64,000 nt of DNA, taken from assembly GCF_027595985.1 (NCBI RefSeq), contig NC_073308.1, forward strand, positions 12,298,566-12,362,565. The letters run 5' to 3'. The stretch comes from Sorex araneus. Its lineage: Eukaryota > Chordata > Mammalia > Eulipotyphla > Soricidae. The notes below the pieces were generated by a model. The model saw only the letters and a program-made list of their open reading frames with translations. It was not told where the DNA came from and made no database searches. Below, piece after piece: positions 1,182-63,402 of the stretch. Within the stretch, counting starts at the first letter, position 1; every line of letters begins with the position of its first letter. The position numbers and the translations under genes were made by a program.

Positions 1182-4100
1182 TTAAACACAAGCACAACTG
1201 AAGGATATGTTAAAGTAAGGGTGGACAGTGGCTTCCAGTGAAGCTCCTTCCTGGCGGAGGTGGTAGAAGAATGCCTCAAACGGGGGCTCCCGCTGGAAGG
1301 ACAGGACGAAGCTGGGGACAGAGAGGCAGCGCTTGGCGACAGAAGCCACAGTAGCATGGTCCCTCCCAGGCTCAGGGGGTCAGAAGGGCCCAGGCTGCAA
1401 ATCAATCTGGACTGTGGTGCAGGGACACGACGCAGATGTCCCAGGGACCGGAACCCGGGCCCTCCCCGATCCAGGCCTGTCCCTCCCACCTTTCCTCCAT
1501 GGAGATCAGCTCCAGGTCCTGGAACCAGGTGAGAAACTGGTCGTGGGGCTGCAGGCGGTAGTTCTCTGCGGCCTCCTGGAGCAGAACAATCTCCTGGAGG
1601 ATTTTAGTTTCCTGGGACATTGTGAAGGAAGGAAGGAAAAGGCCTGAGTGGGCTGTGGCGCCGTCCAGCCAGGGCTGCCCAAAGGCAGGCTAGAAGGAGA
1701 ATTTCCACAGGAATCCCCCCTTCACTCTGCCCGTCAGCATCTCCACTTGTCTGAGATCAGAAAACACCCCTCCACCAGGAAGTTCCCCTTGATGGATCTC
1801 TGCCCTCCCACACGCATATATAAGTTTCCATTGTTTCATTCTCCTACTGTGAGTGTCAGGCCAGAGGGACAGAGACTAGGAGGATCTGAGAGGGGGCCAG
1901 GGTACAGGGAAGTCGGGTCCCCTCCTCTGTTCCCCTGCAGAGTCCCACTGCTCACCTTTGTTAATTTCTCCTTGTTGATCACCTCCCCCTGGAAGCAAAC
2001 AGCCAAGTGCATGAGAAAGGGCCTCTGGGGGACCCTGTGACAGGCTCTGAGCTCAAAGGACACGGCTGGTGTCAGGTATGCCGACCCTCCCGCCCTGTGA
2101 CACACTGGGGTGTCCAGCGAGGACAAGCATCTTGTCCCTGAGGTGGATGCTGAGGTCCCTCTGCCCCACGCCTCTTGCTGAGGGAGAGGTTGGGGATGCC
2201 CTTGACCTCAGGTGGTTCTGCACCAGGGGCTCTGCTGATCCCTGGGAACTGGGTAACAAGGCCTGAGTGCCCCGTGCAGCTCCTGCCTCGGGTATCAGCC
2301 CAGCGCCAGGGGAGTTTCCCTCAGGGCTCTGCCCAGGGCTGAGGTGCAGGGGAGTGTCAGCTCCAGCCCGCCCAGCCCCCAGCTCACTCACCCCAAAATC
2401 CTCCATTTCTCTGTCCAGACTCTCCAGCTCCTGGAGGAAGGGCCCCAGGAAGGGGACCACACCCTGTGCCGAAGGGGCCGTTAGAAAGGGGCCCTGCTCT
2501 GGGGTCCCCAGGACACCCCCAAGCCTCAGCCTCCCACCACGAGGCTCCAGGTGAGCAGGAGCCCCTCCAGGACCTTCTAATGTCCTCCTCCTTGCAAAGC
2601 TGAGAGCCCTCCCGTGGGTCCCAGGGTCCCAGCCCTCTCCCTGGCTCCCCCACCCACCCTCCACACACCAGCTCTGCAGCCACCCACTCCACCCTGGGTC
2701 GGGACGGGGTCAGCCGGAAGCAGGGCTGGGCCGGGCCTCCTTTCTGAGGGAAGACCCCTGTGGGGGCCACCCCTCTGTCCCTGGGTCCTGCACATGCCCC
2801 TCACCTGGCGTCTCCCGAGGTTCCTCAAGCAGGACACAAAGCTGCAGCGCTGTTCCACCTGGGGATGAGCACCCGACCCTGAGCCTCTGTTACCCGCACG
2901 CCCAGCCCCCACTCTCCTCCCTCAGGCGCAGACTGAAGAGAACAGGGACAGCACTGAGCCTGCAGCCCCCACCCAGAGCAGCAGCCCCATGCAATGCCCC
3001 CAGGGCTGCCTGCCCTCGCAACCCCCAACAGGCCTCCACCCAACCCACACACCTGCTGTGCCCATACAGAGAAGACAGGAATGTCACAGAAACCTGAAGA
3101 GAACCTGCCCCTCCCTCCCTGCCTCCTCCATGCAGGCCTCCAACCCGCAGACTACCTGCGGGGGCTTGCAGCGTCTATGTTTCCGGGCCTGTCTGCACAG
3201 GGCCTTCAGCTTCCTCCGGCTCCACCTAGGGAGGGAGCACATTTGTCCCGAGGGAGCTGTCCCTGCATCCCTGGGGCCCCACTCAGCTGCGGGAAGCCAG
3301 GGTCCCACTCCCTGCCCAGCACCTGGCCCCCGGGCTGCTGTCCCCAGGGGTCTCAGCTCAGTGAGGGGCTCTGCAGACAGAGCCCTGAGGCCGCAAAGCT
3401 GGGGGCACCCACCAGGACACGTGGCCCCAGGTCTGGCAGAGTCGGCGGATGGCGGGGCTCTGCAGGGCACAGATGATGGCATAGGTGGACGCCCAGTTGC
3501 GGAGGCGCTGGCACTCCTGGGAGACAAGAGCAGGGGACAGGGCAGCTGGAGTCTGAGCTCCCTGCAGGCCTCGGTGCAAATTCCCATATGGGGGACACTG
3601 AGAATCTGGGGTCAATGGGGGACACAGAGATCCCCAAGGAACCTTGGGAAAATGTGTGCATAACTCAAGAAAGGAACAGGCAGGACGATGGGCCCCACTG
3701 GGACGGCCCCAGGACACAGTCCCTGCAGGAAACGCCCGCGGTCCTTGGAGCAGGAGACCATCTTCTCTCCCAAACTTCACAGGAGTACAGGCAGCTGCAC
3801 AGGGACCCCCACCCACTGCATACCCAGGCCTCTAGGGCCCAGTGCCCACAACTCCACAGGGATCACCGTCCCAAACATACCGGGCCACCAGGACCCAGTG
3901 CCCCCTACTCCACAAGGACCCAGCCACCACATACCTGGACCCCCAAGATCCAAGGACCCCAATTCCACAGGAAGCCCCCCAATATACCTGGGCCACCAGG
4001 ATCCAGTACTCCAGCATCCGTGCCCGCGCGGGCGGGCTCAGTTCCGAGAGGCAGGTGGTAAGGACACAGGCGGCCACAGTGTAGTACTGGCTCTCGATGG

Positions 4101-6711
4101 CCCGCACAGTGGGGCACACATGCTCGTAGCCCGGCTTGTTCCTGATAGATGAGAGGTCCCCCCGACAGTGGTTTGGCACCAGCTCCAGGAACAGCTCCTA
4201 GGGAGAGGGACAGGTTCAGCCACAGACACCCCAGGAGACAGAACAGAGGACAGGGCCAGTCCCACTCGGCCCTTGGGCTGTGCTGGGCACTGAGGGGCTC
4301 AGGACCCCGGAACCCAGACTGATGCGGGGTGCAGGAACAGGACCCCTCTGCCTGCTCCTGGGCCCTACCAGACTCAGGGTTCTCCCCGGCTCCCTCTCTG
4401 CACCCCTCAGAGGCACATTCCTCTGTGACAGCTGCACTGGGGGCTGGTTCCTGCGTCCCCCTTGAGGGGACCGCCCTCAGGGGCCTCATGGAGTCCAGGA
4501 TGCTCAGACCATAGCAGACACACAAACCCGCGACACTAGTCTCCGCGCCACAGGCACCCCAGCACCCCCCCCCCACACACACACACACTCAGACACTGCT
4601 CTCTGTTAAGCTCAAGGACATGAACCCCTCCCCATGCCTCCCCTGCCACGGGCCATCTTGGCCATCCCGGGACAGTGCAGGATCAGGGAGTGGGCACAGA
4701 GGGTGAGTGTGGGCCAGGAGAGCCACTGCTGGCAGAGGTGCCCGGGGAGGCAGGTGTGGGCGACGCTGCCTCTCACCTTGTCCATGAGTGTTAGCTGCTC
4801 GGCCATCAGCCGGGCAGGGAACGTGCTGACGGAGACCTGCTTGTTCCCCGGCTCCTCCAAGGGCCTGCTGCCGGGGCAGGAAGGCTCAGGGCCGTCAGCT
4901 GCCTCGCTGGCCCGGCTGGCAGCTGCCCACGAGCTGGCATCATGCGTGTCTCCAGGCCCGGCGTCCTCCAGCTCTGCCCATTGTGCTGCGGCCGCAGCTG
5001 AGGCTTCGAGAGGCTCCAGCTCTGGGGCATCCCGCGGAGGCAGGCCCAGCTCCTCAGGTGGTTCTGGGACAACTGCTGGGGCTGGAGCAACGTCTGAAGA
5101 GAAGGGCCCCGCCTCAGGGTCCCGCCAAGCCACAACCAGAAACAGCAGAGCCCTGTCCCCAGACCACGGCGTGCAGGAGCCCGGCCACCCCAGAGGGCAG
5201 GGCCTTTACCCTGAGCCCTGATCAGTGCGGTCAGGAGAAGTTCCTTCCTCAGATGAACTTGGAGGCCAGAGCCAGAAAAATGCACCAGAATGCAGCCCAG
5301 CATCAGTTGCACGGGGACACAGCACAGCCACTCAGCACAGCCCTCAGGCCAGGACCCCGACATGGGACTCAGGGCGCTGGGGGGAGTGCAGGGAGCAGAG
5401 TCAGGACCCTGGAACGTGCCTCCCCTGCTCCCACAGAAGGTCCCCTCACCTGGAGCCCAGCTGAGCCATCATGCCACTGAGAAGATCTAACAGAGAACCT
5501 GTGAGTGGGTCCCCATGCCCTCGACTCCAATGTCGTGAGAATGACCTTCCCCACCTGGGCCTGTCCTGAGCTGCTGGGAATTCTAGAGTACCTGCCGGGG
5601 CCCGTCTGCTGCTGCAGGCCCAGGGATGATGAGCAGGAGGGGGTGAGAGGAGGCCAGACGAGGGCAGTGGGACAGGGAGTGTGGGCCACTCAGGGAGACC
5701 CCAGCCCAATCTGCTGTTTCCTGAGCCCTGGGACCCCTCTTCAGCCCTCTGTGATGCAGGGACCCTGTCAGGGAGGTTCCCTGTTGGGGAAATGATGCCT
5801 GAGCTCTGGCTTCTGCCCACACACGGCACCAACACAGACCCGGCTGACCCTTGTGGATACTGGGGACCCTGGACCACTCACTGCTTCAGTGTTTTTTCGC
5901 AGTTGAGAACCTGCTCCAAGTATGGGAGGAGGCATCCAGACCTATGGGAAGCAGGAAAGTGTCCATGGAGTGTTCGGGACACACGGCAGGATCCTGAGGC
6001 TCAGACCAGGACTCAGTCCCAGGGAGTAGCTCTGTTTTTGCGTGACAATGTGTGGAGAAATGCTGTATGACCAGGTGCTGCTTTGACGTATGGAAAGACC
6101 AAACTACCAAACCCTTCTCCTGTCCCGTGGTGCTGGGACACCTGTGTGCCCCAGAGATGTCTAATCGCCCAGAGCAACACCAACAGGAAGACCAGGGCAT
6201 GGGTGGACAGAAATGCTTTGGAGTTCGGAGGGGGTTTCCTGTGCATGTACTCTGGGAGTCCCAAGCCACAGGCTCTGAGAGTTGCGGCTGCTGTTCCATG
6301 GGCAGGAACAAGAATGAACAGGAAGCTCATGGTCAGGAGACCAGGCAGCAGCCCAGCACTGTCACGGCCCATCCCATGTCCTCCTCCAGGACCTTGCGTG
6401 ACTCTCTCCACGCTGTGTTCAGAAGAACCAGCAGAAGCCCAGAGAGGCCCTGGCTCCTTCTGAGCACCCCAGGCGGGGAGGCAGGCAAGGCCCAGCGGCT
6501 GGCGGGGCGGCTCTCACCAACGCAGCATCTGCTGCAGGATCCGCGCGGGAATGGGGAAGGCCAGGCCGGTAGGAAGGATGGTGGTAACAGAGGAGAACTT
6601 CCGCCCAGGGGAGGTTTGCATCAGGGAGACCAACATCTCCACAGTTCTTTCGCCGAGGGTCAGCATCGTGCAGGCCTCATCCAGAGAGCTCGGGCACATG
6701 GGCTCCTCCTG
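1182..6711 (-). CDS. Ral guanine-nucleotide exchange factor, RALGDS/RGL family (RGL4-like), 5' end unresolved
   Basis: RalGEFs load GTP on Ral GTPases downstream of Ras. Eleven coding exons follow in transcript order: 6518-6711, 5210-5376, 4777-5093, 3988-4197, 3413-3516, 3156-3225, 2805-2858, 2392-2463, 1956-1988, 1490-1611, 1182-1311. All introns are GT-AG and all phases join, totalling 1473 nt (490 residues plus stop). Residues about 10-120 weakly resemble a RasGEF N-terminal domain. Residues 121-220 are a Pro/Ala/Glu-rich linker. Residues 220-485 are the CDC25-type catalytic domain: EQLTLMDKELF, CPTVRA, RARMLEYWILVAQECQRL, STYAIICALQSPAIRRL, GVVPFLGPFLQEL and AAENYRLQPHDQFLTWF. The frame ends soon after FQREPP with no Ras-association domain, as in RGL4. 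Divergence from RGL paralogues is high, including NW where NF is usual and an arginine-rich segment at residues 331-354. The region upstream of 6711 should hold the start exon, which I could not identify. Closest paralogue is not settled; a recent pseudogene is unlikely given the intact frame. Confidence 0.85.
3818..4015. repeat. 53-57 bp minisatellite spanning an exon-intron boundary
   Basis: Four diverged tandem units begin near 3819, 3876, 3930 and 3983. Each has a catac/tatac box followed by a ccag-type box and ccagt. The unit at 3983-4015 is the last coding part of exon 3988-4197 plus its splice donor. The other three lie just downstream in the intron (minus strand) and each carries a copy of the donor context, two of them with a usable gtatg. 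Confidence 0.65.
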
Positions 6712-8124
6712 CTGGTGGGCAGGGGGTGCAAGATGGTCAGTAGGTTCCCCAGGGTGCAGGTGCCAAGGGTCTGGAGCTCAGAACTGGGGGAAAACCAGCT
6801 CTTGGGGCAGAAACAGGAGCGCCCACATGTGCAAGGAATCGGGCTGAGGACTGCCCTTCTGACCAATGAAGTTTGCTGTTGTCAGTTGGGAGCATTCACA
6901 GGCCAGAGGACAGGCATGGCCCCGAGGGTCTCAAGGAACCCACCCCCTGCAGAGGACAGCAGGGGGCAGCTGGGCAGGTCCCTCCTCATCAGCAGAGAAG
7001 CTCCTGCAGCTGCTCTCAGGACCTGCCTCCTCTTCAGTTTGTTCTGCCCCCCGGTGAGGGGCTGGGGAGCCCCGCTGAGGGGCTTCAGAGCTGTGGCAGA
7101 TCCCTCCCCAGGTCTCCCCCTACCCTCTGGGCCCCTCCTTTGAGGCCCCCCTTTGCCCAGTGGCCACTGTGCTCCAGTGCTGCCCCTAGTGGAGAGAGCT
7201 GCCATGTGCCACCGAATCTCCCCTCCAGGAGTCCCTGGGCCAGCCCACAGACTCTGTCCCTGGCCACTAGGAGGCGGGGCCTCTCCTGCCTTGGGCCTGT
7301 GCTGGGGAAGCCTCAGACCCAGACTGCAGCAAGCAGCCACAGGAGGGCCCTGCTCTGCTGCTGAGATGCTCAGGGGCTGATGCCAGTTGAGCTGTCCCTG
7401 CTCTGTGGGCTGAGTCCTGTCCCCACGTGTCCTGACAGACTGTAGGGACTCAGCCAACACAGCTCCTTTCTCTGGGCCTCCTTCCCTGGAGGTGCATCCC
7501 AGGGATGGCAGTTTCAGGGAAATGAACACCGCAGCCCTCTGCTCCTTCTCTCTCTAACCCCCAACCTGAGCTGCTTCCTGCTTGGAGAGTCAGCCAGACA
7601 GGGAGCTGTCTGAGCCCCGTGTCCCTGGGCCATGAGGACAAGGTCAGACAGCAGTGCAGATACACAGTGTGACTGAGGGGAACGTGGGCGTGGCCCTCTG
7701 GGTCAGCTCCTTGTTCTGAAGTGGGTGGGGATGGACTTTCAGCTGACCCTGTGTCAGAGGAGCATTGGGGACTGGATCACTCTGAGATGGGCCGTGGACA
7801 CCCCGAAGGGTCACCATGGAAGAGTCTCAGGTGTCTTGGGCTCGGAACTGGGCTCTGCACCCACCTCCCCATCTCAGACCCTGAGTGTCACCTGCTCACC
7901 TGTGCCGGGCACTGGGTGTCACTGCATCTGTGCGGTCCCGGGCTCGTGTCCTGGCAGGTAGAACAGCTGCTTCCCACCAGGGGCTCCACCGGGATGTCCC
8001 GAGCTGAACTCTGTAACACAGCCTCTGTCACCCCTGGGAGGGACCTGACACGGGGCCCCCTTGAAGAGTCTTTTTGGTCCAACAGTGAAATAACATCTCT
8101 CACCACAGAGACTGCACACAGCGA
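6712..8124. other. upstream region of the Ral exchange factor gene; start exon not located
   Basis: GC-rich, low-repeat sequence. It should contain the first exon(s) and promoter of the minus-strand gene. I found open minus-strand frames (6882-7529, for example) but nothing resembling an RGL N-terminus with a matching donor. Confidence 0.3.
7261..7277 (+). promoter_or_regulatory. candidate CTCF site
   Basis: TGGCCACTAGGAGGCGG matches the CTCF core (CCACYAG then GGC) with one weak position. It lies upstream of the Ral exchange factor gene. Sequence match only. Confidence 0.35.
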
Positions 8125-19776: not shown

Positions 19777-20511
19777 CTAGAAAATATTATGTTACAGATT
19801 TTAAGTGTCTGTATTCATAAGTAAAAGATTGTAATGAAAAATCACATTGGATGCAAAAAAATCTGATCAAACATAGAACTTTCAGTGTATGTGAGATGTC
19901 AATTCATCACTAAAACTCTTTAAAACACCCCTTAGGAAGCTAGGAATAAACGTACCTTTCTTAATCTAGTAGAGGGCAACCATCAGCATTTTTTTTTTTA
20001 ATTTTTATTAAATCACCATGTGGAAAGTTACAAAGTTCTCAGGTTTATATGTCAGTTATACAATATTCAAACACCCATCCCTTCACCAGTGCCCAAATTC
20101 CACCACCAGAAACCCCAGTTTACCCCCCGCCCCCACCCCCTACCCCCTACTGTATAACTAATGAATTTCACTTCATTTTTTCTTTACCTTGATTACATTC
20201 CATAATTCAACACAAAACTCACTATAGTTGACATAACTCTCTCTCTCTCTTTTTTTTCTCTTTTTCCTTTTCCATTTTTTTTTTTAATTTTTCCCCCTCA
20301 TCCCCCTTCCTGCGCCTCATAGTATGGTGTACTCCACGCCACGTTGGCCAGCGTGGGGCTTTTGCTTAGCTCATAGTCCAGAGGTGGCTGTTACATTAAG
20401 AACCTTCAATATTTCAACAAAAACTTACTGTTATTATTTGGAGTTTCCCCCCCAAGTCTGACCTGTTCAAATGGAACCCTTTCACATTGATGACAATTAT
20501 AAATGTTAAGT

Positions 20512-20537
20512 CGCGCGGACGCGGTAGCGTCCGCGCG
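20512..20537. other. perfect 11-bp GC hairpin
   Basis: CGCGCGGACGC, loop GGTA, then GCGTCCGCGCG: a perfect inverted repeat between the 3' tail and the tandem array of the composite element. Related elements have only a weak version here. Confidence 0.9.
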
Positions 20538-20590
20538 GTTTTGGATTTCTGTATAAAGTCCTGGGAAAATTCTGCCAGAAATTACATATT

Positions 20591-21811
20591 TCCTCCGTTA
20601 GCCGGAGTGGGGCAAAGGCTTAATTCACAGTCTCCATACATGGGTGCAGGCACTTGCTGGAACCCCAATTCCTAAAGCTGTCTCTGGTTCCCGCTTGTTC
20701 CACATCCACCGGCTCTGCAGGGGCATGGGCGCCCGGGCCGAAAACCCGGCCGGCCGGAGCCGAGCACGGGCCCGACTAGGGCTGGCTCTGTATCCTGCGG
20801 CTGTTTCAAGTTCAAAGCACACATTTTTTTTTTTTTTTCCGCGCCACCAAGTTCGTACCTTCTCAACGGACCCACAAAATGTCGGACTCCACGCCTTCTC
20901 CCGGAGGGGAGAGAGACCCAGAAGGAAGGTTCTTTCCTCCGTTAGCCGGCGTGGGGCAAAGGCTTAATTCACAGTCTCCATACATGGGTGCAGGCACTTG
21001 CTGGAACCCCAATTCCTAAAGCTGTCTCTGGTTCCCGCTTGTTCCACATCCACCGGCTCTGCAGGGGCATGGGCGCCCGGGCCGAAAACCCGGCCGGCCG
21101 GAGCCGAGCACGGGCCCGACTAGGGCTGGCTCTGTATCCTGCGGCTGTTTCAAGTTCAAAGCACACATTTTTTTTTTTTTTTCCGCGCCACCAAGTTCGT
21201 ACCTTCTCAACGGACCCACAAAATGTCGGACTCCACGCCTTCTCCCGGAGGGGAGAGAGACCAAGAAGGAAGGTTCTTTCCTCCGTTAGCCGGCGTGGGG
21301 CAAAGGCTTAATTCACAGTCTCCATACATGGGTGCAGGCACTTGCTGGAACCCCAATTCCTAAAGCTGTCTCTGGTTCCCGCTTGTTCCACATCCACCGG
21401 CTCTGCAGGGGCATGGGCGCCCGGGCCGAAAACCCGGCCGGCCGGAGCCGAGCACGGGCCCGACTAGGGCTGGCTCTGTATCCTGCGGCTGTTTCAAGTT
21501 CAAAGCACACATTTTTTTTTTTTTTTCCGCGCCACCAAGTTCGTACCTTCTCAACGGACCCACAAAATGTCGGACTCCACGCCTTCTCCCGGAGGGGAGA
21601 GAGACCAAGAAGGAAGGTTCTTTCCTCCGTTAGCCGGCGTGGGGCAAAGGCTTAATTCACAGTCTCCATACATGGGTGCAGGCACTTGCTGGAACCCCAA
21701 TTCCTAAAGCTGTCTCTGGTTCCCGCTTGTTCCACATCCACCGGCTCTGCAGGGGCATGGGCGCCCGGGCCGAAAACCCGGCCGGCCGGAGCCGAGCACG
21801 GGCCTGACTAG
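20591..21811 (-). repeat. 344-bp tandem repeat, 3.55 near-identical units
   Basis: The word tcctccgttagccgg starts at 20591, 20935, 21279 and 21623, an exact 344-bp period. Only a few substitutions separate the units (for example ggagtgg against ggcgtgg, and gacccagaag against gaccaagaag). The array ends mid-unit at the 5' edge of the element. The units are rich in CpG and encode nothing plausible. Confidence 0.97.
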
Positions 21812-21825
21812 ACCATCAGCATTTT

Positions 21826-22669
21826 GAATGAGAGCCACACTCAGAGTTGCAAAACACAAGGGAAATCTTTCCTGTCCTTTACAGAAGCTCTTCTAATGCT
21901 TCTTGAATAACTGGTTTCAAGACTCTGAATTCCCTCCATCTGCGGGAAATCAAATGGGTCGCTTGACTTTCCACCACCACCCTCCCCCACCACACACACA
22001 CCCCATTCTTGCCTGCATTCTGGTGCAACTGTGAGCTGTCCACCCTGGGGCCCCTTTGAATTGCCAAAGGGTGTTGAACCATCTCTGGTCTGCCTGTCCT
22101 GGAACAATCTGCTGTCAAATGACTTGGCAATGAAGTAGGCTGAGGGGGGCTGTGATGAGCAGAAGCAGCTGCCCGAGGAAAGTGCAGCGCAGGGACCTGC
22201 CCCTGGGACAGCATCCTTCCTGTTCTCAGAGTGTCACAGGGGGCTTGAGCAGCACTCAGGCCTTTCCGGTGCCCACGCTAGCATGTCTGTGCCCACCTAA
22301 CGTCCCACCGCTCTGCTCACCCTCTCAGGCACTCGAGACATTCTCCTCACTGACCACAGCCCAGGCCATCTGCAGCACCGCTCACTCTCCCTGCTCAGAA
22401 GGCTCCTGTGCATCCTCGTTTGACGCACCTTTATGGCCCCTTCCAACCTCTGGCATGAGCCACCCATCTTCCTGAGTCTGTCTCCACGTCCGGCTTCTCC
22501 AGTGGGAACAAGTGGCGAAACGCTTTGGAAACTTGGCAAACAGGACAGGCCTGCACTCCAGTCCCTGACTTAGTGAGTCTGGGGAGATCCAGGAACCTCA
22601 ATTAGACACAAAGTCAAGACAATTCTGAAGCCAGGCCCAAAGAGAGTTGCCTATAAAAGTTCTGTATGG
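21826..22669. other. intergenic sequence with no recognised gene
   Basis: The plus frame 22152-22475 and minus frames 21841-22214 are open but lack domains. No repeat is recognised. Confidence 0.4.
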
Positions 22670-23104: not shown

Positions 23105-24535
23105 TTTTTGTTTTGTTTTGTTCTGTTGTTTATTTATTTCATTTATTGAATCACCATAAGATACCGTTACAAAGCTTACGTGTTTGAGTTTCGATCATAC
23201 AATGATGAAATACCCATCCCTCCACCATTACACATTTTCCACAACCAAAATCCCCAGTATTCTGCCCTTGCCCCAGCCCAACACTTTCCCTGCCTGTGTG
23301 ACAGACAATCTCTTTCTCTACTTTGATTACATTTAATATTTAGATATTAGTCCCACATTATTTTTTTTTATTTTATTAAATCACCGTGTGGAAGATTACA
23401 ATGCTTTCGGGCTTAGGTCTCAGTTATACAATGCTGAAACAACCATCCCTTCACCAGTGCCCATATACCACCACCAAAAAAAAATAAAAAACCCACACAG
23501 TACACCTCCCATCCCGCCCCCCCACCCCCTACCTTGTAACTGATAAGTTTCATTTTACATTCTGTTTACTTTGGTTACATTCAATATTTCAACACAAACC
23601 TCACTATTGTTGTTAGGAGTACCCCACTAGATTCAGACCTACTGTGAAGACAAATACGGGCTACCGCGGCTGCACGGTTTTGAATTTCTGTACTTTAACA
23701 AGAAGTCCAGGGAGATTTCTTCCAGATATTAGATAATTGCAGGCTTGAAAACCCAATCTGTGGTCGTCTTAATATGGCGGCCACCACGCCCTTCATCCCC
23801 GGAGAGAAAGAGGCGAGAGAGAGAAATACCTTTCCCCTCCTGGGCGGGCACGGGGCCGAGGCTTAGTTCTCAGGCTGGAGACATTCTGCGAGGAGTTGCC
23901 CACGCCGAAAGGTTTTGCTGGGTCTGGATTCACGCTTGTGCAGCTGCGGAGAGGCCGCACATGCGTGCGGCCTCCGGGATCACATCTCGGCCACATTATT
24001 ATTGGGAATTTTCCCAACACCACTCAAACCTGCTGAAAAAGCAATGCTAGACAATTTGTTTTATATTGCTTATTATGAATAAGCAATATAATATCAAGCA
24101 GCTTCTCTCCTGGAATTCTAAACTTTTAATATGTAGGTTCTGGAGAGATCTCTGCAGCGAGCTGCTCAGTTCTGGGGTTCATTTGTATGTCTCTGGATCA
24201 TGGTCATTTAGGTGCTTAATAAGTAGCCGGGGGCATTTTGTGGGTGTCATCTCAGAGTCCCATCAGGGCAGTGGGAAGGAGAGGGACCAGCTCCTCCCCT
24301 GTCCTGTGAGGCGTGGCGTTTGCTGCTACTGCTCTCACATACCTGGGCTTTTTGTTGAGTTCTGGAAGATGGCGGCTGCTGGATTTTCTAGGGGGCAGGA
24401 GGAGGGACAGCACTTGCTCCCATCTGGAGTAGCCCGGTGAAAGTGGCCTATTACAAAATCTGGAAGCATCTCTGCAGCTAGCTGCTCAGTTGCGAGATTC
24501 GTTTGAGTGTCTCTAGTATCTGCAGTAGTTAGAAA
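23105..24535 (-). mobile_element. older L1-tailed composite element, interrupted by a younger one
   Basis: An L1-type tail occupies 23105-23352 and a GC-rich part 24001-24535; 23363-23990 is a nested insertion. The GC part contains two copies of a word block (tctgcagcgagctgctcag at about 24151 and tctgcagctagctgctcag at about 24470) roughly 320 bp apart, so it also had tandem 5' units. It carries a YY1-like CCGCCATCTT on the minus strand near 24370. Confidence 0.6.
23363..23990 (-). mobile_element. short L1-tailed composite element, target-site duplication present
   Basis: 628 bp between direct repeats ccacattatt at 23353-23362 and 23991-24000. In sense orientation a CpG-rich 5' half (gccgcacgcatgtgcgg) contains CCGCCATATT, a YY1-type core. 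It is followed by an L1-like tail ending gtgatttaataaaa. Same structure and length as 61743-62366. Confidence 0.85.
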
Positions 24536-25954: not shown

Positions 25955-27520
25955 AATATGAGATCATCTAATCTTTGATAAGGGAGCAAGAAATGTAAAG
26001 TGGAGCAAGGAAAGGTTTTTTTTTAACAAATGGTGCTGGCAAACCTGGACAGCTACATTTAAAAAAAATGGCCTCAGACCTCTACCTAACACCATGCACA
26101 AAAGTCAGATCAAAGAGGACTAAAGACCTTAACATTAGTCCAGAATCCATCAGGAACATTGAAAAAAAATCAGAAAACTCTCTAGGATATTGAAGTTTAA
26201 AGGTATCTTTCGAGACAAAATGCCATTGACCAAGTAAGTGGAAAAAGAGATAAACAAATGGGACTACCTTAAACTAAGAAGTTTCTGCACCTCCAAAAAC
26301 CCAAAAAAACAGTGGCAGTCTGTTTACAAAGAATGCAATGACAGTCTACAGGATGGGAAAGGATATTCACCCAATAACTCTCCAATAAGGGGCTAATAAC
26401 TAGAATATAAAAGGCACCGGTTGAACTCTACAAGAAGAAAACTTCCAATCCCAGTAGAAAATGGGGCAATGAAATGAACAGAAACTTTCTCAAAGAAGAA
26501 ATCCAAATATTCAAAAGTCACATGAAAAAATGCTCTTCATCACTAATTATCAGAGAGATGCAGATCAAAACAACAGCCAGATATCATCTCACACCATAGA
26601 CTGGGACATATCCATAAGAACATAAGTGTTGGCGTGGACGTGGGAAGAAAGGGACTCTCCTTAACTGCTGGTGGGAATGCAGACTGGTCCAGCCTTTTGG
26701 GAAAACAATATGGATATTTCTCAAAAAACTAGAAATTGACCTCCTATTTGACCCAGCAATAACTTTTGGGAATATATTCTGGAGATGCAAAAAGTACAGT
26801 AGAAATGACATCTGCATTTGTATGTTTATTGCAGCACTATTTACAATAGCCAGAATCTTGGAAAAACCCGAATGCCCAAGAACAGACGACTCGTTAAAGA
26901 AACTTTGATATATCTACACAATGGAATACTATGCAGCTGTTAGAAAAAATGAAACCATGAAATTTGCATGTAAGTGGATCAACATGGAGGGTATCATGCT
27001 AAGTGAAATGAAACAGAAAGAGAGTGACAGACATAGAAGGACTGCACTCATTTGTGGAATATAAAGTCACAGAATGGAAGACTAACACCCAAGGATAGCA
27101 GAGATAAGGGCCAGGAGGTTCACTCCAGAGCTTGGAAGCCTATCTCATGTACTGGGGGTAAAGGCAGGTGGGATGGAGATGAGACCACTAAGTAAATGAT
27201 GGTTGAAGGGATAGCTCAGGTTGGTAGATGAGTGCTGAGAGTAGACTATGGATCAAGCATAATAGCTGCTTAGTACCTATACTGAAAACCATAACACCCG
27301 ATAGGAGAGAGAAAGAGGGAATGTGTCTGCCACAGAGGCAGGGGGTGGGAAGGGGTGAGGGTGGTGGAGGGACACTGGGAACATTAGTGATGGAGAATGG
27401 GCACTGGTGGAGGGATGGGTACTCCAACATTGATTGAAGCGTAATCACGAATGCTTGTAAATTTGTAACTGTATCTCATTGTGATTCTTTAAAATTTAAA
27501 AATAAATCGGTAAAAACAAA
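25955..27520 (+). mobile_element. L1, 5'-truncated: last third of ORF2 and 3' UTR
   Basis: Long collinear L1 text: aaatggtgctggcaaacctgg, ccatgcacaaaagtcagatc, acaatatggatatttctcaa, gcagcactatttacaatagcc, atggaatactatgcagctg. A UTR with gggcactggtggagggatgg and an A-rich end follows. Frameshifts and stops break ORF2. This is the best L1 3' end in the window and the reference for the tails of the composite elements. Confidence 0.93.
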
Positions 27521-34805: not shown

Positions 34806-36900
34806 TAGTGCAAGCAATGTGCTACTCTTCATCAATTTCCCATAGCGCTTGAATTTGTTCACTAGTCAGTGGTACAATAATTTCAGTAGGATTGCTCCCT
34901 ATTAATTGTCTAGTTCTTCTTCTTCCTTTGAAAATTATTTGAGATATTTTATTTACATAAGTAACCAATGTTTTACTAGACTTGTTATGTAAAAAACTTC
35001 ATTCCACAATATTAGTTCCTTGTGCCAAAACCCCAGTAGGAGAATGTGAAGTACATAATACTATCATATATAAACTTTCTGAAGAGTCAATTCTATCCAG
35101 CTGAACCTTATTAACAATTTCCTCAATTATTTCTAATTCTTTTTCAGCTGCTGGGCTAAGTTGTAATGGACTATTTAAAGAGGATCACCTTCCAATGTTT
35201 GAAACAAATTTTGTAGGGCATAGGTTGGAATACCCAAAAAAGGGCATAGCCAATTTATATATCCGAATAGTTTTTGTCTATATTTTTATAAACAAAATTT
35301 AGTTTGTATTTAAAGTTTTTCATTTATCTCTCAGAATTTGGACATTTTGAGGTGTAATTTTACTCTCCCATACAATTTGTCCCCAAAATTCCCAAGAAAC
35401 CTGACATTGAATTTTATCCCGTGCAGTTTTTAAACCCCATGATTCTAGTTCATAAGTTATAGCTTCATAAACTTTCTGCAAATTTATTTGCAGTGATTAG
35501 TGATTAGAATATCATCCATAAAGTGAATAATTTTATTTATTTATCTATTTTTAATTAGTGAATCACCGTGAGAGTACAGGGTACAGTTACAGATTTATAC
35601 ACTTTTGTGCTTATGCTTCCCTCATACAAAGTTCGGGAACCCATCCCTTCACCAGTGCCCATTCTCCACCACCAGTAAACCCAGCATCCCTCCCACCCTC
35701 CCCAATCCCATCTCCTCCCACCCCACCCTGCCACTGTGGCAGGGCATTCCCTTCTGTTCTCTCTCTCTCTCTCTAATTAGCTGTTGTGGTTTGCAATAAA
35801 GGTGTTGAGTGGCCACTGTGCTCAGTCTCTAGCCCTCATTCAGCCTGCAACACCCTTCCCCCCGCATGGCCTTCCACTACATTATAGTTGGTGATCCCTT
35901 CTCTGAGTTGCCCTTTCCCCAGAATGTGAGGCCAGCCTCCAAACCATGGAGTCAACCTCTTGGTACTTATTTCTACAATTCTTGGGTGTTAGTCTCCCAC
36001 TCTGTTATTCTATATACCACAGATGGGTGCAATCTTTCTATGTCTGTCTCTCTCTTTCTGACTCATTTCACTCAGCATGAAACTTTCCATGCCGATCCAC
36101 TTATATGCAAAATTCATGATTTCCTTTTTTTCTAACAGCTGCATAGTATTCCATTGTATAGATGTACCAAAGTTTCCTCAACCAGTCATCCGTTCTAGGG
36201 CATTCGGGTTTTTTCCAGATTCTGGCTATTGTAAACAGTGCTGCGATGAACATACATGTGCAGATGTCGTTTCGACTATACTTTTTTGCCTCTCTGGGAT
36301 ATATTCCCAGCAGTGGTATTGCTGGGTCAAATGGGAGCTCAAAATAAGTGAATAATTCTGACTTCAGGGTACTGTGTCCTAATTATATCCAATGGTTGAT
36401 TAACAAAATATTGACACATCCGTCGTGGGACTATTCATCATCCCTTGAGGTAAAAGAATCCAGTGATATCTCGTAGCAGGAGTTTCACTATTTAAAGAAG
36501 TCACAGTAAAAGCAAATTTTTCTCTATCCGCTTCTCTCAAAGGGATGGTATAGAAATAATCCTTTAGATCAATTATAGTAATATTCCATTGTTTTGGAAT
36601 AATGGCCAAATTAGGTAGGCCCATTTGCAAAGGGTCCATTGGTTCCATGCAGTCATTAACTTTTCTTAGATCACTTAACATTCGCCATTTATCAGTCTTT
36701 TTCTTGATAACAAATACTGGTGAATTCCAGGGACTGGAGCTAAAAACGATTTGTCCCAATTCAAACTGTTCTGTAACTAATTCAGTTAAAGTCTTAAGTT
36801 TTTCTTTTGTTAAGGGTCATTGCTCAACCCAAACAGGCTGAACCTTTTTCCAGACTATTGGGAGAGCAGTTCTTCGAGCAGCGGCCCAAATTAAAAAGGC
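34806..36900 (-). pseudogene. retroviral pol remnant (reverse transcriptase)
   Basis: The fingers/palm part is open at 36400-36759 with the WNSPVF-type and LPQG motifs. The YMDD catalytic box and the thumb/connection follow on the far side of the L1, below 35532, in a frame with stops. The L1 lies roughly one duplicated target site (12 bp) upstream of the YMDD codons. RNase H and integrase are missing. Confidence 0.88.
35533..36345 (-). mobile_element. L1 3' end inserted into the retroviral pol
   Basis: Reverse-oriented ORF2 end and 3' UTR. The direct repeat aagtgaataatt lies at 35521-35532 and 36346-36357. It is 5'-truncated. Its position shows that L1 was active after the retrovirus had fixed. 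Confidence 0.95.
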
Positions 36901-36904
36901 GATT

Positions 36905-37700
36905 GCTGAGACACCTCTTTTTCTTTAATGTACTTCACACAAGTTTTTGCAACAAATCTCGTCCCCATAGGGTGATAGCTATTGGAGCAATATATGGCTG
37001 GATGACTGCCGTGTATCCAGCAGGATCACCACAATGAAGAGGTTGCACACTCTGTTTAACATCAGTGACCACTCCCATACTAGAAAAAGTAACGTCCACA
37101 CACCGCTTTTGCCAAACCATAGGCCAATGGAGAGAGGCGATAAAATTACATCAGCACCTGAATCTAACATACCCTCCAGTTTTGTCCCATCCTTAAAGGT
37201 CATAACTAGAATAGGCTTATCATCAGTAATCTTTCTGCCCCAAATATTTCTGCATTAGTGCTTCCAAAATCACTTCTTCTTTTCATGCCTGTATTTTTTC
37301 CTAGTATACACGGAAGCAAAAGCAGTTGAGCAATATGTTCCCCTTTAAATATTCTGATATCCGCTTGAACAGTGGCTATAATTGAGATTTCATTCACAAA
37401 ATCACTGTCAATGAGTCCCACTTTTACGTTAACACCTCGCAAACTCATACTGCTTCTCCCTAGGATAAATTCTGCTGTTCCTTTTGGAAGGGGGCCATAA
37501 ACACCAGTTGGGATTTTATAAATTTTATTAGGAATCAGAAACAAATCCTGTAAAACTGAACTATCAGAGGCTACACTTCCTTCTGTTGCTCTCATAAGGT
37601 CAATATAAGACAGTTTTTTGCCAGTGTTCTTGGGTTTATTAATTATTATCATTGTAGGGGATGAAAAACTTTTGAATTTAATTTGAAGTTTTATTGACAA
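36905..37700 (-). pseudogene. retroviral dUTPase-protease remnant
   Basis: 37206-37700 is open and has dUTPase motifs: a GRSS box and a GLIDSDF-type box matching motif 3. 36979-37203 follows with the aspartic-protease active site DSGAD; the flap and C-terminal part lie in another frame. dUTPase ahead of protease is typical of betaretroviruses and some class II endogenous elements. Confidence 0.85.
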
Positions 37701-37734
37701 TTTCCTGTATTGTTGAAGGGGCCCCGGGTCGAGC

Positions 37735-39040
37735 CCCGACTCCCGTTTCCCAATGACTCATTAGCTTTCTAAATTTTTCTCTTTTCTAATGACATTTATT
37801 AGCCCAATGCTTCCCCTTCACACATCGTCTACAGATGCCTGGTTCTTTCCTTACACTCTCAGACTTAACACGAGAACAATCTCGTCTGAGATGTCCAAAG
37901 GCTCCGAGCCGTAACATTTTACCTGGTTTATTGTTTTAAAAGCAGCAGCTATTATTTGCACCTGATGGGTTGGTGTTCCGACTTCCCTACATACTTTAAT
38001 AAAATCATCTAAAGAGTTTTTTTCCCATTAGCTTAGCAGTTTGAATTGCCTTTTGGCAATCTGCTGTAGCATTTCCCACCACTAAAGTTAGCATAAGCAT
38101 TTCACGAAGGCCTTTGCCAGGTATAGCCTTTTCAAGAGCGTCCTGGAGTCTGGCAATAAAATCTGTTCATTTACTTCCTGAAAGATTTTTGTGAATGACA
38201 GTACATTTTGCAGAGGTTTCAAGATAACACCATGCCTTTAGACAGGTCTTATTAACAGCTTCTAAAATGTTTGCCTCCAAACGGACTTGTTCTTCCGCTA
38301 AAGCCCACTTGCCAGTGCCTAAAATCTGGCTCACAGTGATATCAACATGTTTTGGTGTTTGAATTCTAGCATATTTCCCAGCCTCTTCTTTCCACCAAGA
38401 TTTGAATTGTACATATTGAGAATTTTCTAACACTGCCTTTGCAAGAGTTTGCCAATCAAGTGAAATTACAGTATTAGCTTCTGCAAAATTTTCAAGAAGG
38501 GCTAGCACATAGTTAGAAGTAACACCATAGGTGGTCACAGCTTGCTTGAGCGAGGAAAGAAACTGAAAAGGAACAGGCCCATATTCCCCTGCCTGTCTTT
38601 TTCTTTGCTCATCAGGATTACAAACGACTGGAAAAGCCATAAACTGAGCAGGCTGTTGGCTCAATTTTGCCTTATATAAAGGAGCTTCAGATTTTTGCAT
38701 CAGAGAATGCAACTCAGGAGTAAGCTTAGAAGGGCAACACAGAGATTCCTCTTCCCTGTTTTTATATAAGCAAGGGGAAGGAGCTGCCAAAGGGTCAGGA
38801 TCAGTGATACCCTGTACAGCAGGCATTATCCTTCTTTCAGAAGGGCGGTGCATCTCAAGGCACTTCATTTGACTAACTGATTCATCTAATTTTTTATTAA
38901 CTTTTCTCAACTCTTGGGCGCTTACAATCTCTTTTGAAACTGAATTCTCTGTGTCTGACTCAGAAGCTGTCAGACTCAGAACAGGCAGGTGAATCATCAA
39001 TTTGATATGAATCACCAGATAATATAGATGCTGTCGGCTT
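37735..39040 (-). pseudogene. retroviral gag remnant (capsid and nucleocapsid)
   Basis: An open stretch below 39040 contains a betaretroviral-type capsid (the segment with PVPFQFLSSLKQAVTTYG, then a DWQTLAKAVL-type segment). Beyond 38167 the frame breaks. The nucleocapsid keeps one CCHC zinc knuckle (about 37810-37850), while the preceding knuckle has lost its cysteines. The open frame above 39040 on this strand is antisense to the collagen-like exons and is not gag. Confidence 0.82.
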
Positions 39041-61742: not shown

Positions 61743-62366
61743 CACCGCCGAGATGTGATCCCAGGGGCCGCACGCATGTGCAGCCTCTCCGCAGCTGCAC
61801 AAGCGTGAATCCAGACCCAGCAAAACCTCTTTCGGCATGGGCAACTCCTCGCAGAATGTCTCCAGCCTGAGAACTAAGCCTCGGCCCTGTGCCCGCCCAG
61901 GAGGGGAAAGGTATTTCTCTCTCTCACCTCTTTCTCTCCGGGGATGAAGGGCGCGGTGTCCGCCATTTTAAGACAACCACAGATTGGGTTTTCAAGCCTG
62001 CAATGATCCAATATCTGGAAGAAATCTCCCTGGACTTAGTGTTAAAGTACAGAAATTCAAACCTTATTTGTCTTCACAGTAGGTCTGAATCTAGTGGGGT
62101 ACTCCTAACAACAATAGTGAGGTTTGTATTGAAATATTGAATGTAACCAAAGTAAACAGAATGTAAAATGAAACTTATCAGTTACAAGGTAGCGGGTGGG
62201 GGGGCGGGATGGGAGGTGTACTGTGTGGGGTTTTTTTTTTGGCGGTGGTGGAATATGGGCACTGGTGAAGGGATGGTTGTTTCAGCATTGTATAACTAAG
62301 ACCTAAGCCTGAAAGCATTGTAATCTTCCACACGGTGATTTAATAAAAAAAATTTTTATTTAAAAA
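61743..62366 (+). mobile_element. short L1-tailed composite element with target-site duplication
   Basis: 624 bp between aaaatgcaatact at 61730-61742 and 62367-62379. It has a CpG-rich 5' half with gccgcacgcatgtgcagcc and CCGCCATTTT (YY1-type core), and an L1-like 3' half with atgggcactggtgaaggga and gtgatttaataaaa. Collinear with 23363-23990 in the opposite orientation. No ORF. Confidence 0.88.
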
Positions 62367-62439: not shown

Positions 62440-63386
62440 TGACTTTTCTTTCTTTTTTCTGTGTGTTTTATTTTATTGAATCACCATGTGGAAAGTTACA
62501 AAGTTCTCAGGCTTATGTCTCAGTTATACAATACTCAAACACCCATCCCTTCACCAGTGCACATATTCCACCACCAAAATCCCCAGTATATCTCTCACCC
62601 CTGCCCCCCCACCCCCACCTGAGTAACTGATGAATTTCACTTCATTTTCTCTTTACCTTGATTACATTCCATATTTCAACACAAAACTCACTATTGTTGT
62701 TGGACTTTCCCCCAAAAAAAGACAGCCCTACTACCAAGGAAGCATTTGATAATTAGTTTTCCATTGCTGAGAATGAAGAGATATGAAGTCCCACTGCTCC
62801 AAGTACATAATTATTTTTTTCCCTTTTTTTTTCTCTTCCCCCTTCCCTCGCCACTCAGTTCATACCTGTTTGATAGACCTCATAATATGGTGGACGCCAC
62901 GCCGCGTTTCTCCCCGAAAATGGGAAACAACTGGGAAAGAGGGAGATTTCCTATCCTCGGCCCACGTGGGGCTATGGCTTAGTTCACAGTCTAGAGAAAT
63001 GGCTGCTACTTTGATTATCTTCAATATTTTAACAAAAAACTCACTATTACTATTTGGAGTTTCCCCCCAAAGTCAGGCCTGCTAAAAAGGAACCGTTTCA
63101 CATTGCTGACGATTAAGAGATGTTAAGTTGCGTGGCCGCTACCGCAGCCTCGTGGATTTGGATTTCTGTATAAAGTCCAGGGAAAATTCTGTCAGAAATT
63201 GCATCCCTGCAAGCTTTTACTTCCCTTTTCCATAAGATGGAAAAGCCTGGAGAGAGAACCCTTCCCTGCGGGTGCCGCATGGGGGCAGCGGCTCAGCTCA
63301 CAGTCCAGAGGCCTCTCTGGGAGCTGCTAGCGTCCAAAGTAGTTCAGTTGGCCTCTGGGATCATGCTCGTGCAGCAGCTGAAAGGG
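62440..63386 (-). mobile_element. L1-tailed composite element, longer form
   Basis: Tail complement (attgaatcaccatgtgga) leads to a CpG-rich part (ggtggacgccacgccgcg, cacgtggggctatggcttag) homologous to the 344-bp unit of 20591-21811. Direct repeats atttgtacatttcttt lie at 61691-61706 and 63387-63402, so this element plus the nested 61743-62366 may be one insertion site in the L1. Confidence 0.7.
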
Positions 63387-63402
63387 ATTTGTACATTTCT
63401 TT

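Follow-up and report, generated by a model that had tools for sequence, protein, structure and literature searches.

In a 64,000-nucleotide stretch of the Sorex araneus genome (hereafter the window), we identified a complete ORF-less element, copy A (19993-21811, minus strand), which very likely represents a young, replicating family that carries no coding sequence, is mobilised by L1 and has had its start region enlarged by tandem duplication. In copy A, 3.55 CpG-rich units of 344 bp (U) lead into a middle part, M, and then into a tail of L1-like type, T; this layout, U(n)-M-T, recurs at 19 other loci.

The limits of copy A are given by its target-site duplication, an exact 14-bp repeat (accatcagcatttt) with a left copy at 19979-19992 and a right copy at 21812-21825. 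Between them lies a single retrotransposed unit with its 5′ end at 21811 and its 3′ end at 19993; since the minus-strand poly(A) is seen as a T-run at 19993, the element is read from 21811 down to 19993, and all of its parts are given here on the minus strand. Tandem Repeats Finder assigned the array (20589-21811) a period of 344, 3.6 copies, 99% matches and a score of 2425, and neighbouring full units (1 versus 2, 2 versus 3) differ by one base per pair. A sequence-only reading had described 3.55 near-identical 344-bp units, an L1-like tail and a 14-bp flanking repeat beginning at 19979 and 21812, all of which were confirmed. Unit 1, the 5′-most (21468-21811), begins with the bases that form the 5′ end common to 9 of the 22 copies read; units 2 (21124-21467) and 3 (20780-21123) were delimited by the tandem repeat analysis, and a partial unit, comprising the first 191 bases (20589-20779), is joined to M. 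The tail (19993-20245) has a G-rich tract and a poly(A) end, with AATAAA at 20004-20009, and is homologous to the 3′ ends of L1 remnants. Against an observed/expected CpG ratio of 0.30 for the entire window, the array had 0.76, M had 0.87 and the tail had 0.18.

Copy A is more than an array and a tail, because M intervenes with a GC-rich palindrome and a degenerate remnant of the unit. M (20387-20588) is homologous to the corresponding part of three older copies in the window (B, C and D, see below). Its palindrome of 28 bases (20512-20539) is predicted to form an RNA hairpin with an 11-bp stem, and the predicted fold reached z -3.2 over a 221-base stretch; the unit remnant lies downstream of M (20340-20384) and matched the U profile at E 3.5e-5. 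Among the 20 copies matched by script, the palindrome retained all 28 bases in 16 and was shortened in 4, with L045 unmatched by the script and L047 lacking M. The loop bases appear as reverse complements of one another among loci L031-L050 (TACT/AGTA, TGCT/AGCA), as if the centre of the hairpin flips.

Searches of copy A for known classes gave negative results. No Pfam domain was found at E ≤ 0.001 in six frames with stops read as X, and coding potential was rejected for copy A. Rfam returned 8 matches at E ≤ 1, all far under the gathering score, and a known structured RNA was rejected on that basis. Neither the tRNA, 7SL nor 5S families occurred in this E ≤ 1 list, and ARAGORN found no tRNA in 19900-21900; a SINE assignment, which calls for a Pol III promoter of tRNA, 7SL or 5S RNA type, was accordingly dropped. 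An autonomous LINE-1 was likewise dismissed, given the lack of Pfam domains in copy A and the finding that 0 of 22 arrays are joined to ORF1 or ORF2. The proposal of the sequence-only reading that this is a non-autonomous L1 partner without coding sequence is supported.

Family searches were performed on the assembly from which the window was taken (2.41 Gb, 65 contigs). An exact 23-mer of the unit occurred 902 times, against 0 for the reversed control, and a viral contig set scanned with a 24-mer of the unit gave 0 matches. The unit search reported 118 matches from 1348 first-look candidates, grouped into 38 places, and the first 100 unit matches listed, all on contig C1, represent 77 separate places. 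In the M-T search, the best 40 of 2331 candidates were scored, and 40/40 were at 99-100%. We then read 22 loci, namely the window copy, 20 fetched stretches and L029; these were selected for the closeness of their unit match (21 come from the 38 scored places, themselves drawn from the 1348 candidates), so the sample is non-random. The layout U(n)-M-T was present at 20 of them, L043 being without T and L047 without M and T. Three copies lie inside an older L1 (L029, L032 and L040), and at L047 a piece of L1 was seen beyond the duplication. Arrays hold about 1.1 to 7.6 units in the loci read and about 1 to 21 in young copies overall. One array, at G000:C1:30121427-30128365, has at least 21 units at steps of 344-349 bp and is longer than the other arrays read. 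In another array (L041, positions 1575-3827), successive units switch back and forth between two types of score, which suggests growth of that array in two-unit blocks. The last unit joins M at one of two positions, unit base 191 or, in L038, L042, L048 and L050, unit base 115. Relative to copy A, the M-T part at 19 loci showed 1-7 substitutions and 0-33 gap columns over 569-604 aligned columns, in line with the recent amplification that had been proposed from the window alone. Units differed on average by 0.33% within arrays and by 0.48% between loci (46 full units, 14 loci).

The copies bear the marks of an L1-mobilised retrotransposon, that is, duplications, poly(A) and an A-rich target start. 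Target-site duplications of 13-20 bp were found at 20 of the 22 loci (19 by script, L029 by eye); they were looked for and not found at L046 and L050, and L044 has an irregular 3′ side. Insertion by the L1 endonuclease is expected to give a duplication with an A-rich start, and 13 of the 20 duplications begin with AAA; owing to the adjoining poly(A), however, it is ambiguous where the match starts on its left side. Poly(A) is present after T. A paralogous empty site was identified for L032: the L1 that this copy interrupts is continuous in the L046 stretch, which holds the first 14 bases of the duplicated word once. The joint arrival of array and tail by L1-type retrotransposition, claimed earlier for copy A, is supported, and the count of ORF-less copies with duplications that had been suggested as a check stands at 20 of the 22 loci read. 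L043, which lacks T, stops at an A-rich stretch within the element and is flanked by a 20-bp duplication, so that an A-stretch, not T, seems to be enough for priming. Any special role of T stays hypothetical: its identity to L1 tails is no more than about 68-83%, and 2 of the 22 copies moved without it.

The 5′ ends point to a preferred start within the unit. The first base of the copy falls within unit bases 1-4, a single 4-base stretch, in 9 of the 22 copies and elsewhere in 13; when 5′ ends were placed at random, 0 of 2000 trials reached 9, with a maximum of 6. These positions were derived by script, except for L029, L042, L043 and L050, where they were read from the sequence. Unit bases 1-4 therefore mark a 5′ end. 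A second apparent common end, at query base 52 in minus-strand matches, was traced in the DNA of the loci to clipping by the search tool. L032 and L033 carry an extra G between the duplication and the first base of the element; such a G is expected when a cap is copied. Candidate YY1-like sites, recognised by eye, are CCGCCATATT and CCGCCATTTT in the older copies C and D and GACATTTT in the young unit.

The clearest evidence on transcription comes from L047. Here 2.66 units are cut exactly before GTACGA and joined to about 130 bases of exon-like sequence from elsewhere, with poly(A) and a duplication on the chimera. The joined sequence has its source at C4:129083892-129084020 (98% identity), where it follows a long polypyrimidine tract and AG. 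A splice donor, AAG/GT, lies in unit 1 of copy A (21545-21549, minus strand) and again, at 344-bp spacing, in the next two units; it is apparently the site used in L047. It is intact in 51 of 52 matches from the fetched DNA and the window copy, the exception being L047 itself; six sites in the genome have a non-G base after the donor stem, and the five that were read comprise four point changes and one chimera, L047. To judge from these sequences, L047 appears to derive from a spliced chimeric transcript that either started within an array or read through one, with the qualification that the acceptor is the second of two AGs and that a few bases are different in the source copy. Alternatively, the join may have arisen by RNA template switching at a short shared AGAG. 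As L047 is apparently a spliced and polyadenylated chimera, the RNA of the array is very probably a Pol II product.

The window also contains older relatives, whose U and M align with the young unit and M. Copy C (23363-23990, minus strand) is a single-unit U-M-T with a 10-bp duplication, nested in copy F, and copy D (61743-62366, plus strand) is a single-unit U-M-T with a 13-bp duplication (AAAATGCAATACT). The two are 92% identical over 627 columns and share a common 5′ end, with separate duplications. Copy B (62466-63400, minus strand) is an older ORF-less relative in the order U-M-U-M-T, with an uncertain 5′ limit; a target-site duplication was looked for and not found. Copy F, interrupted by C, retains weak older remnants of U and M in its 5′ part (23995-24520, minus strand), with U matches at 24520-24400 (E 1.4e-4) and 24216-24139 (E 0.004) and an M match at 24155-23995 (E 4.1e-5); its 3′ part corresponds to T (23141-23356, minus strand, E 2.2e-24). 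Because the older copies C and D have a single unit, B has two U-M blocks and the young copies have tandem units, the array was apparently acquired late, by an ORF-less lineage that was already old.

The relation to the L1s of this genome differs between the two ends of the element. At the 3′ end, T has the G-rich tract and poly(A) of an L1-type 3′ end, and in six L1 remnants a T match follows the ORF2 C-terminus in the same orientation. Two of these remnants are in the window (26537-27499, plus strand, and 35551-36343, minus strand, each with a 3′ end homologous to T behind the ORF2 C-terminus) and the others are in L032, L040, L044 and L046; the identity of 68-83% given above applies where blastn gave a figure. 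Also in the window, at about 36421-38590 on the minus strand, a broken endogenous retrovirus has Gag p24, dUTPase, protease and a partial RT in different frames, and its pieces adjoin an L1 ORF2 C-terminus. In the L046 stretch, an L1 insertion (5300-7480) has the endonuclease start of ORF2 fused to the C-terminal part; much of the interior is deleted, and the deletion lies at a short word that is repeated. Among the matches listed, 5 of 118 ORF2 C-terminal matches lie in open frames of 1296 aa, and L1s with such frames are possible helpers of the family.

At the 5′ end, no source of U or M was detected in the L1s examined. The 344-bp unit was absent upstream of ORF1 in both L1 5′ ends read (L051 and L052, each with a 1296-aa ORF2 frame): the best match of the L051 5′ end to copy A was 20 bp at E 0.016, with nothing significant, and the only match in L052 was to T, in an older tail that precedes the L1. 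The sampled L1s instead have their own 5′ UTR of about 420 bp. The best 40 of 2510 candidate places for this 5′ UTR were scored (e.g. G000:C2:81936541-81937258), and at 18 of the 40 its first part recurs upstream, in at least one extra copy, about 150 bp away. The nearest distance between the 38 scored unit places and these 40 places was 203 kb. The unit was therefore rejected as a promoter monomer of shrew L1s, which is one of the two possibilities that the sequence-only reading had put forward: 0 of 22 arrays lead to L1 ORFs, and 0 of 2 L1 5′ ends carry the unit. Its expectation that shrew L1s have tandem 5′ repeats fits, as they seem to carry repeats at about 150 bp, but in these samples they are not the 344-bp unit. 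It had further named, as a contrary outcome, a unit occurring only as a satellite unrelated to L1 5′ ends; half of this came true, in that the L1 5′ ends seen bear no relation to the unit. The unit is no satellite, though, being dispersed and accompanied by duplications and poly(A).

Four other explanations of the copies were weighed against this background. An origin in the manner of SpIREs, by splicing or deletion from a full-length L1 of the shrew with the 344-bp array as its 5′ UTR, would explain the homology of T to L1 3′ UTRs, and tandem 5′ repeats are an L1-like trait found on L1s of the same genome. We nevertheless regard this origin as improbable: L1 ORFs are joined to none of the 22 arrays, both L1s read with a long ORF2 have another 5′ UTR, the scored L1 5′ UTR places lie far from the scored unit places, and the older ORF-less copies with common 5′ ends have a single U. 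It is conceivable that the first ancestor was an ancient L1 with U-M as its 5′ UTR, or that an L1 lineage outside our samples uses the 344-bp unit. A model in which one or a few master non-coding genes give rise to processed retrocopies, with every new insertion dead, accords with the high similarity of the loci and with the small differences between units within arrays and between loci. It seems unlikely all the same, though less so than a SpIRE-like origin, as the start region is kept in inserted copies, at least two types of junction to M exist (unit base 191 or 115), and L047 joins RNA of the array to the C4 sequence, for which an array near the C4 source would be needed.

The remaining two explanations are far weaker. 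A satellite that captured an L1 tail once, or was captured by one, would account for 21 units at 344-349-bp steps in one place, yet the 77 places among the first 100 unit matches listed and the same U-M-T join at 20 of the 22 loci, together with the duplications and poly(A), largely refute it, and we consider it very improbable. Near-identical units and copies could also suggest an assembly artefact or a segmental duplication; this is largely refuted by flanks and target-site duplications that differ among loci and by the empty site for L032, which leave it a negligible chance.

A young family mobilised by L1 thus remains the preferred reading, and its cycle may be pictured as follows. RNA would start within the 344-bp unit at one favoured base, as the common 5′ ends show, from a promoter presumably inside the unit. 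The putative Pol II transcript would pass through array, M and T and be polyadenylated at AATAAA. L1 proteins acting in trans would cut the target at a TTTT/A-type site and insert a copy of the RNA, primed on its poly(A), a step to which the duplications and poly(A) point. New copies could in turn be transcribed, since the RNA carries the start region along. The 5′ end would have grown by tandem duplication, from one U (C and D) through two U-M blocks (B) to the young arrays of about 1 to 21 units.

At title and abstract level, the literature gave no description of a U(n)-M-T family, and a Repbase or Dfam entry may exist; PMC6542046 concerns an RTE element of the common shrew. Among known systems, HAL1 keeps ORF1 and SpIREs are splice products of L1s with the same 5′ UTR. 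The shrew copies resemble both as shortened elements propagated by L1, with the difference that a parent L1 carrying the shrew unit was not found in our samples. The trypanosomatid elements RIME and NARTc are short non-coding LINE partners that keep a promoter and a 3′ end and are not known to have a tandem array. They share with the shrew family the state of a coding-free LINE partner and differ in clade and host, and the shrew start region, unlike theirs, differs from that of the sampled L1s. As outlined in PMC9022269, mouse L1s have tandem 5′ UTR monomers, variable in number, followed by a non-repeated part. These monomers and their tether are the closest layout to U(n)-M, namely tandem 5′ units on an L1-propagated element; the comparison is one of layout, and the shrew unit, in contrast, occurs among the loci read only in ORF-less elements.

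In life style, the nearest likeness is to the hominoid SVA, LAVA, PVA and FVA elements, whose VNTR composites have GC-rich repeats and poly(A); in SVA/LAVA elements the VNTR lies among an Alu-like region and SINE-R or L1 modules. Non-autonomy and tandem repeats are common to both, as are, presumably so in the shrew family, L1 mobilisation in trans and the joining of host exons by splicing. PMC4432496 and PMC7353768 present SVA and LAVA as non-autonomous elements with a tandem-repeat part that are mobilised in trans by L1, the former describing VNTR composite retrotransposons as hominoid-specific, and PMC6139936 reports that one SVA subfamily originated when a host exon became linked to the element by splicing. 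What the SVA element gained there was a first exon of the host, whereas in the shrew family the unit was joined onto downstream sequence. Compared by description, the shrew element also differs in its 344-bp units, which form the 5′ end, in its L1-like tail and in its non-hominoid lineage, and the Rfam list for it contains no Alu/7SL-type match. On balance we favour the view that the shrew lineage independently evolved the SVA/LAVA life style, as an ORF-less L1 parasite with its own mobile, splice-competent start unit. This unit would form tandem copies at the element's 5′ end, would not depend on the promoter that the present L1s use, and would spread promoter/first-exon units through the genome. 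Such a life style is otherwise described from ape elements. A second VNTR-type case, with very young copies, would offer a testbed for why L1 parasites keep tandem GC-rich units; it could be used to test whether the units are promoters that buffer 5′ truncation, and could show how such elements bring new first exons to host genes. Within this one genome, moreover, an L1 with 5′ repeats at about 150 bp can be compared with its presumed parasite, which carries 344-bp units.
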